This document shows, in pieces, positions 13,958 to 16,428 of a stretch of DNA of 34,875 nucleotides. The position numbers and the translations under genes were made by a program. Below the pieces are notes generated by a model. It had not been told where the DNA came from and made no database searches. It saw only the letters and a program-made list of their open reading frames with translations. How positions within the stretch are numbered: position 1 is the stretch's first letter; every line of letters starts with the position of its first letter. Source of the DNA: Streptomyces humicola (GTDB lineage Bacteria > Actinomycetota > Actinomycetes > Streptomycetales > Streptomycetaceae); the NCBI RefSeq assembly GCF_024436035.1, contig NZ_JANFNG010000049.1:1-34875 (forward strand). The letters run 5' to 3'.

Positions 13958-14221
13958 TTAGATGGCGGCTTTCTTCAGCCGACGCCGCTCTCGCTCCGAC
14001 AGCCCGCCCCAGATGCCGAACCGCTCGTCGTTGGCGAGTGCGTATTCGAGGCACTCGGAACGGACCTCACAGGCGAGGCAGACCTTCTTCGCCTCGCGGG
14101 TGGAGCCGCCCTTCTCCGGGAAGAATGATTCGGGGTCGGTCTGCGCACACAGTGCACGCTCCTGCCACCCGAGCTCTTCTTCCGCCTCCTCGCCCAGCAA
14201 CAGCTGGAACTGCTCGGTCAT
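13958..14221 (-). CDS. whiB: WhiB developmental transcription factor (Wbl family)
   Basis: An 87-residue iron-sulfur regulator. It begins MTEQFQLLL and carries the four cluster-binding cysteines Cys25, Cys48, Cys51 and Cys57 (CLACEVRSEC), the turn motif GIWGG at 69-73, and a basic C-terminus (SERERRRLKKAA) for DNA contact. The sequence closely matches Streptomyces WhiB, which acts with WhiA to start sporulation septation in aerial hyphae. The ATG at 14221 follows GAGGGG; the longer frame to 14323 runs through the promoter region. A promoter with TTGACT and TGTAAT lies upstream. The gene stands alone and is divergent from the cysteine dioxygenase unit. Confidence 0.97.
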   Translation of the reverse strand: MTEQFQLLLGEEAEEELGWQERALCAQTDPESFFPEKGGSTREAKKVCLACEVRSECLEYALANDERFGIWGGLSERERRRLKKAAI

Positions 14222-14293: not shown

Positions 14294-14323
14294 ATTACAA
14301 GTGTGCGGATCCAGGCCAGTCAA
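14294..14323 (-). promoter_or_regulatory. Probable whiB promoter (vegetative type)
   Basis: On the minus strand, TTGACT (14323-14318) and TGTAAT (14299-14294) are separated by 18 bases. This fits a HrdB-type -35/-10 pair, and implies a leader of roughly 65 bases before the whiB ATG. A GACAC pentamer (14282-14286), the core that WhiA recognises, lies just downstream. This is read from sequence only. Confidence 0.55.
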
Positions 14324-14678
14324 GCCGAGATCTGCTATCGGGCCCCTTATTCACTCCGCGGAACCAAGGGTGAGCAGAAAGTGTTCAAATCAGCCCAAAC
14401 CATGACATGAGAATCGTGGGGTCCGACCGGCTCGTCGCACATGCCGGAAGAGACGCCGTAGATCGCCACAGCGTTGCACCTCCCATGGCAGAGCGGACCG
14501 GATCACAGTCTGATCACGGAAGCATAACGACGTTTCCGTGAGCGGATGGTGCGGCACGTATCCGCGCCCCCGGCAGAGCAAACCTTTCGCCAGAGTGACC
14601 AACCGGATCAGGTGAAACATCCAGGGCAGTCCGGGCGTCAAGTTGACAAAGGGCCGGACAACCGCTCTTCTTGAGACC
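14324..14678. promoter_or_regulatory. Regulatory region between whiB and the poly-Cys leader ORF
   Basis: This stretch separates the whiB promoter from the leader ORF at 14679. It contains an inverted repeat, CACGGAA (14515-14521) with TTCCGTG (14534-14540), and a pair of GATCAC direct repeats just before it. TTGACA at 14643-14648 is a perfect -35 element. With an 18-base spacer and a poor -10 (CTTCTT), transcription could start at or near the leader ATG. No convincing protein gene was found; a 44-codon frame at 14407-14541 is possible but unsupported. Confidence 0.5.
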
Positions 14679-14777
14679 ATGCCGAACGAGACCCACGCGC
14701 CGTCCAGGACTCGCACCCGCGAGTCCCGCTGCGCTGTGCGGGTCCTCGGCGCTCTCTCCTGTTGCTGTTGTCGCTGA
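14679..14777 (+). CDS. Cys-rich leader peptide (candidate cysteine attenuator)
   Basis: A 32-codon reading frame runs from ATG 14679 to TGA 14777. It is arginine-rich in the middle and ends in Ser, four consecutive Cys codons (TGT TGC TGT TGT), Arg and stop; a fifth Cys lies at residue 18. Four Cys codons in a row are very unlikely by chance. The frame sits about 100 bases before the cysteine dioxygenase start. Poly-cysteine leaderless short ORFs that act as cysteine-responsive attenuators are known from mycobacteria, and similar Cys-rich leader peptides are annotated in Streptomyces. No clear ribosome binding site precedes the ATG, and TTGACA at 14643 makes a leaderless transcript possible. 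The peptide itself probably has no function; ribosome stalling on the Cys codons would be the signal. Confidence 0.7.
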   Translation: MPNETHAPSRTRTRESRCAVRVLGALSCCCCR

Positions 14778-14880
14778 CTCAGATCGTTCCGATCGACCCG
14801 GCCGATTCCCGGCCACTCCCCGCGACGCAGCACATCCCCGTCTGCGCATCCCACCGTCAGCTCCTGCCTTTGGGACCACC

Positions 14881-15402
14881 GTGCACCGCGCTCTCTCCGA
14901 CATCTCCGTAGCCGGCGACCCGCTCGCCGTCCCCCACCTGCTGCCGCCCGTGGCGCAGCACCCGGCCACCGTCGCCGACTTCTCCGGCCTCGCCCGTGCG
15001 ATAGCCGAAGACCGCGGCCGTTGGGCACCGCTCGTCGACTACGACACGACCACGCGCTGGTACGCCCGTCTCGCCACCGGACCGGGGTACGAGGTCTGGC
15101 TGCTCAGCTGGCTCCCGGGCCAGGGCACCGGACTCCACGACCACGGGCAGTCCTCCGGCGTACTGACCGTGCTGCAGGGCGAGTTGACCGAACGCGCGCT
15201 CGGTGCCTCCGGCGAGACCCGGCGCACGCTCGGCGCGGACGACCAGCGTGTCTTCGCCCCCGGCTATGTGCACGGTGTCGTCAACGACTCCCTCGAACCC
15301 GCGGTCAGCCTGCACATCTACTTCCCGGGCCTGACCGAGATGACCCCGTACACCTCATGCTCGGCTCCTTCAGGCCGGGAACGGGAGTCCGTCCACGACT
15401 GA
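14881..15402 (+). CDS. Cysteine dioxygenase (cupin)
   Basis: A 173-residue cupin enzyme that adds O2 to cysteine to give cysteine sulfinate. Cupin motif 1 reads GTGLHDHGQSSGVLTVLQGEL, with two iron-ligand His (HDH), and motif 2 includes APGYVHGVVND with the third His. The region PGYEVWLLSWLPGQ matches bacterial cysteine dioxygenases. The GTG at 14881 (VHRALSDISVAGDPL) fits the usual N-terminus; the open frame extends further up but overlaps the leader region in another frame. There is no strong ribosome binding site, consistent with control through leader structure. The poly-Cys ORF upstream suggests expression responds to cysteine level. Confidence 0.88.
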   Translation: MHRALSDISVAGDPLAVPHLLPPVAQHPATVADFSGLARAIAEDRGRWAPLVDYDTTTRWYARLATGPGYEVWLLSWLPGQGTGLHDHGQSSGVLTVLQGELTERALGASGETRRTLGADDQRVFAPGYVHGVVNDSLEPAVSLHIYFPGLTEMTPYTSCSAPSGRERESVHD

Positions 15403-15417
15403 CTGGCCCGCCAGTCA
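15400..15417 (+). terminator. Hairpin overlapping the cysteine dioxygenase stop codon
   Basis: TGACTGG (15400-15406) pairs with CCAGTCA (15411-15417) around a CCCG loop. The stop codon TGA is the first part of the stem. A second small hairpin, TCAGCC-TCC-GGCTGA (15439-15453), lies just before fbiA. Either may reduce read-through into fbiA. Confidence 0.5.
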
Positions 15418-15465
15418 TCCACCACCACCCTCAAACGATCAGCCTCCGGCTGACAGACTGGCTCC

Positions 15466-16428
15466 ATGCGAATCGTGGTACTGGCCGGCGGCATCGGGGG
15501 GGCGCGGTTTCTGCGTGGCCTCAAGGCAGCGGCACCTGACGCGGACATCACCGTCATCGGTAACACCGGCGACGACATCCACCTCTTCGGCCTCAAGGTC
15601 TGCCCCGACCTCGACACCGTGATGTACACCTTGGGCGGCGGCATCCACGAGGGGCAGGGCTGGGGCAGGGCCGACGAGACCTTCACGGTGAAGGAGGAGC
15701 TGGCGGCCTACGGCGTCGGCCCCGACTGGTTCGGGCTCGGCGACCGTGATTTCGCCACCCACATCATCCGCACCCAGATGATCACCGCGGGCTATCCGCT
15801 GAGCGCCGTCACCGAGGCGCTGTGCGCACGCTGGCAGCCCGGCGTACGGCTGATCCCGATGACCGACGACCGTGTCGAGACCCACGTCGTCATCGACGCA
15901 CCCGAGGACGGGGGCCGCAAGGCGGTGCACTTCCAGGAGTACTGGGTACGGTTGCACGCCTCCGTGCCCGCGCACGCCGTGCTGCCGGTCGGTGCCGAGC
16001 AGTCCAAGCCGGCGCCCGGGGTGCTGGAGGCAATCGGCGAAGCGGACGTCGTCCTGTTCCCGCCGTCCAATCCCGTCGTCAGCATCGGCACGATCCTCGC
16101 AGTGCCGGGGATGAGAGAGGCGATCGCGGACGCCGGAGTTCCGGTCGTCGGCCTCTCCCCCATCGTCGGCAACGCGCCCGTACGCGGCATGGCCGACAAG
16201 GTGCTCGCCGCCGTCGGAGTGGAGTCCACCGCCGCGGCCGTCGCCAAGCACTACGGCTCCGGCCTGCTCGACGGCTGGCTTGTCGACACGGTGGACGCCG
16301 CCACCGTCGGCGAGGTGGAGGAGGCCGGGATCAACTGTCGCGCGGTGCCACTGATGATGACGGACATCGAAGCGGCCGCGCGGATGGCACGCGAAGCGCT
16401 CGCGCTCGCCAAGGAGGTCTCCTCATGA
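15466..16428 (+). CDS. fbiA: F420 biosynthesis 2-phospho-L-lactate transferase-type enzyme (CofD/FbiA)
   Basis: A 320-residue cytosolic enzyme starting [19 protein letters not shown], the nucleotide-binding loop of CofD/Fbi[21 protein letters not shown] and [14 protein letters not shown] are further family signatures. It joins Fo to a lactyl- or enolpyruvyl-diphosphoguanosine group; in actinobacteria the product is understood to be dehydro-F420-0. The ATG at 15466 has no clear ribosome binding site, and CAGACT at 15454-15459 is placed as a -10 for a leaderless transcript. The stop overlaps the fbiB ATG (ATGA), so the two are translationally coupled. No fbiC is in the window. Confidence 0.95.

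Follow-up and report, generated by a model that had tools for sequence, protein, structure and literature searches.

A Cys-codon leader ORF conserved upstream of cysteine dioxygenase in Streptomycetaceae, a candidate translational attenuator

Within the window (the whole 34,875-nucleotide stretch of Streptomyces humicola DNA that was analysed), a profile search identified a gene for cysteine dioxygenase type I (CDO; PF05995, E 1.1e-20), whose start codon is likely the GTG at 14881. The stop codon of a short open reading frame lies 103 nt ahead of this GTG. According to the ORF list and its translation, the short frame at 14679-14777 encodes MPNETHAPSRTRTRESRCAVRVLGALSCCCCR and ends in SCCCCR and a stop, the last Cys codon being followed by CGC and TGA. 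The initial annotation, which had described a 32-codon frame ending in Ser, four Cys, Arg and stop about 100 bases upstream of a cysteine dioxygenase, is borne out in all these points. The frame was also considered as an N-terminal extension of CDO in the frame of the latter, and this was rejected, the Pfam match beginning after the GTG. In S. coelicolor, we take SCO3034 to be whiB, and SCO3035 and SCO5772 to be cysteine dioxygenases, SCO3035 being the gene that presumably matches the CDO of the window. The features of the locus are as follows.

13958-14221, minus strand: WhiB-family regulator, divergent neighbour (PF02467, 3e-27); its start is the second Met of the listed ORF
14643-14648, plus strand: -35 element TTGACA, 36 nt before the A of the leader ATG
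14679-14777, plus strand: poly-Cys leader ORF, 32 codons plus TGA, a frame conserved across loci
14694-14738, plus strand: hairpin inside the leader ORF, with the inner stem GGACTCGC (14707-14714) and GCGAGTCC (14719-14726) and the loop ACCC
14760-14771, plus strand: four consecutive Cys codons (TGT TGC TGT TGT), the putative regulatory codons, in most relatives within the predicted anti-RBS stretch
14782-14794, plus strand: GATCG-TTC-CGATC, a predicted 5-bp hairpin (14782-14786 with 14790-14794), found in 1 of 166 spacers
14825-14842, plus strand: spacer element whose predicted partner is the Cys-codon stretch, with 8.2 expected pairs in the free RNA; GCGACGCAGCA is also present in the sister species
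14843-14860, plus strand: spacer element whose predicted partner is the CDO ribosome-binding region, with 9.7 expected pairs in the free RNA (one sequence only)
14872-14883, plus strand: weak SD-like GGGA and the GTG start codon of the dioxygenase
14881-15402, plus strand: cysteine dioxygenase type I (CDO)
15466-16428, plus strand: CofD (F420 biosynthesis), the next gene 3' of CDO on the same strand (PF01933, 4.2e-59)

The leader was found at every orthologous locus that could be read. A CDO match at E <= 1e-40 is present in 290 of 297 genomes of the family; 110 upstream regions were taken from the better-scoring part of the matches listed, and one of them, a 172-base contig end (L064), was dropped. 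A Cys-rich short ORF precedes the orthologous CDO gene in all of the remaining 109 loci (91 recognised by a strict rule, 18 more by a relaxed one). Five of the 17 genera were absent from this first set, and 17 further genomes were searched, mainly to fill these genera; in each of their 14 orthologous loci a Cys-rich short ORF was found, preceded by TTGAC at 35-37 nt; the leader of locus L286 has only two Cys near its end. The total is thus 123 of 123 readable loci, in all 17 sampled genera. In a second set of 80 loci (from Actinacidiphila, Streptomyces, Streptantibioticus, Streptacidiphilus, Wenjunlia and one unclassified member of the family), the Cys-rich ORF was present in 80 of 80, always with TTGAC spaced as expected for a leaderless start. 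The 109 loci of the first set and the 80 of the second overlap, and together represent 166 distinct leaders, with 3-11 Cys codons each. Even two loci in which CDO is split between frames (L296, L301) retain the leader, and in one genome (G210), where only a more distant CDO was found, this gene has a leader of the HVDL type. Chance occurrence of the ORF was rejected on these counts. The poly-Cys leader of the attenuator kind that the initial annotation had proposed is therefore real and conserved, and a Cys-rich short ORF is kept upstream of the orthologous dioxygenase genes.

The N-terminal part of the leader varies by lineage, while the start, the internal hairpin and the Cys codons near the stop are constant. 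Presence at every orthologous locus read would also suit a functional Cys-rich microprotein without any cis regulatory role. We regard this as highly improbable: the peptide outside the Cys run changes freely between lineages, its internal part follows an RNA hairpin, and the synonymous choice of TGT matters for a predicted RNA pairing (see below).

The promoter is equally constant. TTGACA lies 36 or 37 nt 5' of the start codon in 166 of 166 distinct leaders, and after it comes a conserved -10 region that resembles GGTCTCCTTG but lacks the usual A. The start was set by hand in three loci (L073, L110, L040), and in the second set starts with TTGAC at the right distance were preferred; in the remaining 106 loci of the first set the spacing is independent of such choices. 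A consensus sigma-70 scan, which demands the -10 A, found no promoter at the leader, and in the window (14657-14678) and its relatives the usual A is missing from the second hexamer position despite the perfect -35. The fixed distance of 36 or 37 nt would place the start of transcription at or next to the leader start codon. Judging from this arrangement, the leader is very probably leaderless, as had been suspected from the perfect TTGACA at 14643.

The hairpin inside the leader was examined in 53 of the 80 loci of the second set, namely those with non-duplicate peptides of 26-33 residues. Changes on both sides of the stem were seen in 40 cells; shuffles gave 10.9, and 0 of 500 of them reached 40. 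Altogether, 91.9% of cells pair, and this falls to 30-46% when the register is slid. The folding energy of the region is only modestly below that of codon shuffles (mean z -0.77). Judged by its covariation, the internal hairpin is an RNA element, and the conservation of the peptide before the Cys run would be due in large part to it.

The spacer between leader and gene is less uniform. A switch built from GATCG/CGATC blocks had been proposed for it; these blocks can form a 5-bp hairpin in the window, but they are not conserved as such, occurring only in the window among 166 spacers, while the sister species has another, longer hairpin of 13 bp at this place. For the first 45 nt of the spacer, folding is barely stronger than in shuffled sequences (mean z -0.27). 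The block was consequently rejected as a conserved element. Transcription attenuation by an intrinsic (Rho-independent) terminator was rejected as well, none being found in 14300-15550, a range that includes the spacer between leader and gene. Membership of a known RNA family was likewise discarded: Rfam gave no match up to E 1 in the window at 14450-15000, and none at the gathering cut-off in seven loci of the second set.

To describe the relation between the leader and the ribosome-binding site (RBS) of CDO, the whole leader and the CDO start were folded in silico with a 28-nt block treated as occupied, and the opening of positions -20 to +12 was scored; the sample comprised the first 109 leaders. 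In 74 of the 109 the Cys stretch is predicted to close the RBS and a resting ribosome to open it (effect below -2 kcal/mol; mean about 4). The mean opening cost is 14.94 kcal/mol in the free RNA, 15.05 with the ribosome at codon 8, where it has no effect, 12.63 at the first Cys, 11.00 at the last Cys and 11.60 at the stop; at the last Cys the cost falls by more than 1 kcal/mol in 81 of 109 leaders and rises by more than 1 in five. Scanning the block along the RNA located the effect (-3.7 to -4.4 kcal/mol) at centres -30 to -10 nt from the leader stop, with -2.4 at 0 nt and -1.0 to +0.4 elsewhere. The predicted partner of the Cys stretch varies by lineage: it is the SD in some (TGTCCCTG with CAGGGACA; CTGTGTTGTCG with CGACGACACAG) and the start codons in others (GTTGTTGCTGTTC with GAACAGCGACAAC).

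The effect depends on the order of the codons and on the choice of Cys codons. In 60 of the 166 leaders its mean is -3.97 for the native sequence, -0.88 after codon shuffling, -0.46 with all Cys codons as TGC and -3.85 with all as TGT; the native value exceeds that of its own shuffles in 51 of 60, with a p-value that ignores relatedness. Of the 720 Cys codons within the last nine codons, 576 are TGT, compared with 31 of 114 at earlier positions; T stands at 17% of the other NNY codons. The predicted anti-RBS pairing would give this strong TGT bias of the regulatory codons a concrete reason. On the side of the gene, 93 genes begin with Met-Asn-Ser-Asp and are predicted to pair through their start codons; 92 of them use AGY for the Ser.

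As a control, sulfite-reductase/cysH operon leaders of the family were folded (71 genomes matched, 30 loci read, 21 usable); no comparable effect was seen in these 21, with means of -0.54 to +0.48 everywhere, and in 9 of the 30 loci read no HVDL-type leader was found by rule. Other measures are weaker. An across-family permutation gave 0 of 5000, a result confounded by relatedness, and plain duplex energies are only modestly better than those obtained with the leader shuffled (mean z -0.68) or the start region shuffled (-0.76). Swapping leader and start region between sisters gave a null result (own better in 36, swapped better in 34, 83 pairs, p = 0.70), and therefore lends no support to compensatory evolution of the pairing between Cys stretch and RBS.

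Taking into account these observations, we propose that the leader is a leaderless Cys-codon translational attenuator of CDO, conserved across Streptomycetaceae and switched on at low Cys-tRNA, a reading to which we give roughly an even chance of being correct. It is supported by the conserved ORF, the promoter spacing, the hairpin covariation and the predicted pairing in most but not all lineages. According to this proposal, transcription would start at or beside the ATG, and a 70S ribosome would load on the 5' end and translate the leader. The internal hairpin would form first and may pace RNA polymerase. Terminal Cys codons left free would then pair with the SD or start-codon region of CDO and keep it closed, while a ribosome resting on them for want of charged tRNA-Cys would prevent this pairing, so that CDO would be translated. 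The predicted polarity (low Cys-tRNA, on) would be that of biosynthetic attenuators. The leaderless start, the stalling, the direction of control and a part for the leader in thiol oxidation, a state that may deplete charged tRNA-Cys, are what we infer.

The predicted switch is not evenly distributed. An effect below -2 was obtained for 35 of 43 genes with Met-Asn-Ser-Asp starts, 24 of 26 in a second class, 14 of 30 others and 1 of 10 in the GTG-start class. The leader of the window belongs to this last class and shows an effect of 0.0 (12.7 free versus 12.5-12.8 stalled on the run), that of its sister being -3.4. In the window the Cys stretch is predicted to pair instead with the spacer element at 14825-14842, and a ribosome placed on the first Cys codon of the run reduces the expected pairs between 14843-14860 and the RBS from 9.7 to 0.7 (a prediction for one sequence); the net change is nil because the RBS refolds on itself once this pairing is lost. 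For the species of the window, the switch is thus not predicted by the route of Cys stretch and RBS.

The lack of an RBS effect in the window and most of the GTG-start group would agree with Cys codons that sense cysteine but act on transcription, by Rho termination in the C-rich spacer or by hairpin pausing, rather than on the RBS. The element with clear covariation is the internal hairpin, in our reading similar hairpins are present in HVDL leaders at the sulfite-reductase operon and at two CDO paralogues (CDO2 and CDO3, see below), and the changes published in PMC7181669 and PMC4991794 sit at the RNA level. Such an output remains unlikely in our judgement, as no intrinsic terminator was found in the leader and the RBS pairing predicted in 74 of 109 leaders would need another reason.

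As regards translational attenuation, the folding also predicts a direction. Since the Cys codons are the predicted anti-RBS in most of the folded leaders, a stalled ribosome should open CDO and not close it; the inverted output would require a stall upstream of the pairing stretch. Of the 109 leaders, 51 have an early Cys codon in such a position; a ribosome stalled on it changes the opening cost only slightly (mean -0.64), whereas a ribosome at the stop codon of the same leaders gives a mean of -3.88. The leader could then act by inverted, coupled translation, in which a stall at the early Cys keeps the pairing (off at low cysteine) and ribosomes reaching the end melt it (on at high cysteine). 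We consider this doubtful, albeit a real possibility. Early Cys codons are lacking from the other 58 leaders, where a ribosome stalled at the first Cys is predicted to open the site by a mean of 3.76 and, in 36 of them, by more than 2. Moreover, the early codons are mostly TGC and, in our reading, those situated in the 3' arm of the internal hairpin could exchange TGC and CGC with the pairing kept.

Opening of the site by more than 2 with the ribosome at the stop codon was predicted in 67 of 109 leaders, and Cys is frequent at fixed distances from the stop (at the fourth residue from the end in 82%, at the sixth in 74%). Both facts would suit a TnaC-like arrest peptide, in which high free cysteine arrests the ribosome at the end or stop of the Cys-rich chain, covers the anti-RBS and switches CDO on, with the logic expected for a catabolic gene. 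However, the C-terminal residues differ (CCCR, CRCR, SSC, CRCS, CCI), the arrest is putative, and the fixed Cys positions are equally explained by RNA pairing, so that we hold this explanation to be quite unlikely.

Expression data bear on the polarity from both sides. In Table 1 of PMC4991794, treatment of S. coelicolor with H2O2 raises SCO3035 6.54-fold and SCO5772 8-fold, and SCO6094-6102, SCO4164 and SCO2910 are also up. The rise of SCO3035 together with cysteine-biosynthesis operons fits one polarity for all Cys leaders, and points away from the inverted coupling. As stated in the same source, no gene was up-regulated by H2O2 in a mutant lacking HbpS-SenS-SenR; with this result, and with a change measured at the RNA level, the cause may be transcriptional. 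According to PMC4340878, induction of cysI, cysA and cysM by diamide occurs whether or not NdgR is present. On the other hand, in the feather-degrading Streptomyces SCUT-3 cdo1 is given as 50.2-fold and cdo2 as 8.3-fold up in feather medium (PMC7181669). If these genes correspond to the CDO genes considered here, a putative correspondence, their induction in this cystine-rich medium suggests the opposite polarity and, like catabolic physiology, fits the inverted coupling; CDO made when cysteine is short would be physiologically odd.

On balance, more evidence points away from the inverted direction that was first proposed than toward it: the expectation that low cysteine would lower CDO synthesis is not supported by the anti-RBS folding or by the H2O2 data. 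With the architecture of the preferred translational attenuator, stalling would switch CDO on, in keeping with known attenuators, and the leader probably lets the cell tune CDO to its cysteine supply.

Related Cys leaders occur at other loci. The genome of the window contains two further CDO_I genes on the minus strand. One (CDO2; contig C55, 119563-119997), followed by a rhodanese-domain ORF, is preceded by the leader MSTSRRFFERHHVDLVRVASALCRSGRP, which scores 24.8 with the NCBIfam model NF042934, just below the cut-off of 27. The other (CDO3; contig C8, 29738-30202), followed by a rhodanese-domain match, has the leader VTDTDLRLVRRVHLDLLRFVGCVCRPSC, also below this cut-off; here, the RBS is predicted to become 4-5 kcal/mol easier to open once the Cys region is blocked. 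Among 21 rhodanese and PALP loci of the same genome, three have an HVDL-type leader (two of these being the CDO2 and CDO3 leaders) and one other has a short Cys-rich ORF. An HVDL-type Cys-rich leader ending in RLHVDLCRLASAICPCAVHCPATTR lies about 540 nt 5' of a PALP (cysteine-synthase-like) match at locus L273, possibly a cysM-type operon. At the sulfite reductase/cysH operon of locus L227 (9172-9089, minus strand), an NF042934-type leader, MSRAGIALVGRLHVDLGRMSSAICPAS, was found, whose HVDL region can form a hairpin (GGTCGAC/GTCGACC), so that the motif may be conserved for RNA structure.

In a class-wide sample, a CDO match was present in 86 of 197 genomes; 16 of the matching rows belong to the family itself, and 14 of the others were read upstream. 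CDO genes from two other families of the class (L143, L144) have HVDL/HIDL-type short upstream ORFs with Cys, the second also with an overlapping frame ending in RCCCTAR. Two further CDO loci outside the family (L134, L142) show other Cys-containing frames far upstream, apparently unrelated. Given the HVDL/HIDL-type ORFs of the first two, Cys leaders before CDO may predate the poly-Cys form of Streptomycetaceae. Within the family, two leaders of the orthologous CDO locus in another genus (g11) read SLHVELRRAASALCC; their intermediate form suggests, by sequence, a descent from the HVDL kind. Their frames, L284 1204-1293 (MSVRTASRSLHVELRRAASALCCPRACCL) and L286 1227-1316 (MSARLAHRSLHVELRRAASALCCPRTRRP), look intermediate between HVDL and poly-Cys leaders.

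Known Cys-codon attenuators stand before cysteine-making genes. In this case the Cys leader stands ahead of a gene that destroys cysteine, wherever an orthologous locus could be read in this large, antibiotic-producing family; a search among open-licence PMC papers found none that deals with a leader ORF ahead of cysteine dioxygenase. Should the RNA-based polarity hold, a degradative enzyme would respond in the same sense as the biosynthetic genes, and thiol homeostasis under oxidation in Streptomyces would be seen differently; if the opposite is true, this would be an attenuator wired the other way.

The leader peptide family escapes current annotation models. Those compared were NF042934 (cis_reg_atten, putative leader peptide) and NF042933 and NF042936 (the Cys-rich leaders Ms5788A and Ms4527A). 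None of them matched the leader of the window at E <= 10, and none matched those of seven relatives, so that identity with a known NCBIfam leader was rejected. The L286 leader reaches 14.5 bits against a cut-off of 27, and NF042934 recognises the sulfite-reductase leader of the same genome (31.6 against 27). Like the CDO leader, NF042934-type leaders precede sulfur genes in the same genome; however, the CDO leader is predicted to pair with its own RBS in most of the cases folded, while the sulfite-reductase leaders are not.

Among classical systems, attenuators of the trp/his type likewise combine a run of codons for one amino acid with alternative RNA pairings, but differ from this locus, where no intrinsic terminator was found in 14300-15550. 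TnaC, the leader peptide of tryptophanase, relies on one critical residue and on ligand-induced arrest. It similarly precedes a catabolic gene for an amino acid that it contains; the CDO leader differs in having a Cys run instead of a single critical residue, and ligand-induced arrest is here putative.

The closest parallel is provided by the mycobacterial poly-Cys leaderless short ORF attenuators, which were reportedly described by Canestrari et al. in 2020. Translation attenuation by Cys-codon leaders is cited as established in mycobacteria in passages of PMC9031893 and PMC13236596, the latter stating that the leader pairs with the downstream RBS, which a stalled ribosome should free; such attenuators are also cited in parts of PMC9094748 and PMC4633059. 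The CDO leader shares with them its short length, the apparently leaderless start, a 3' cluster of Cys codons and the position before a sulfur gene. A pairing of leader and RBS that a ribosome would free is a putative further parallel: folding predicts it in 74 of 109 leaders, but neither in the window nor in most of its GTG-start group. It differs in that the downstream gene destroys cysteine rather than making it, and in that the peptide belongs to a different family, outside the NCBIfam models for that group. The strong TGT bias and the covarying hairpin may be further differences. The CDO leader would therefore resemble a known kind of attenuator, but one placed on a catabolic gene and with a peptide form of its own.
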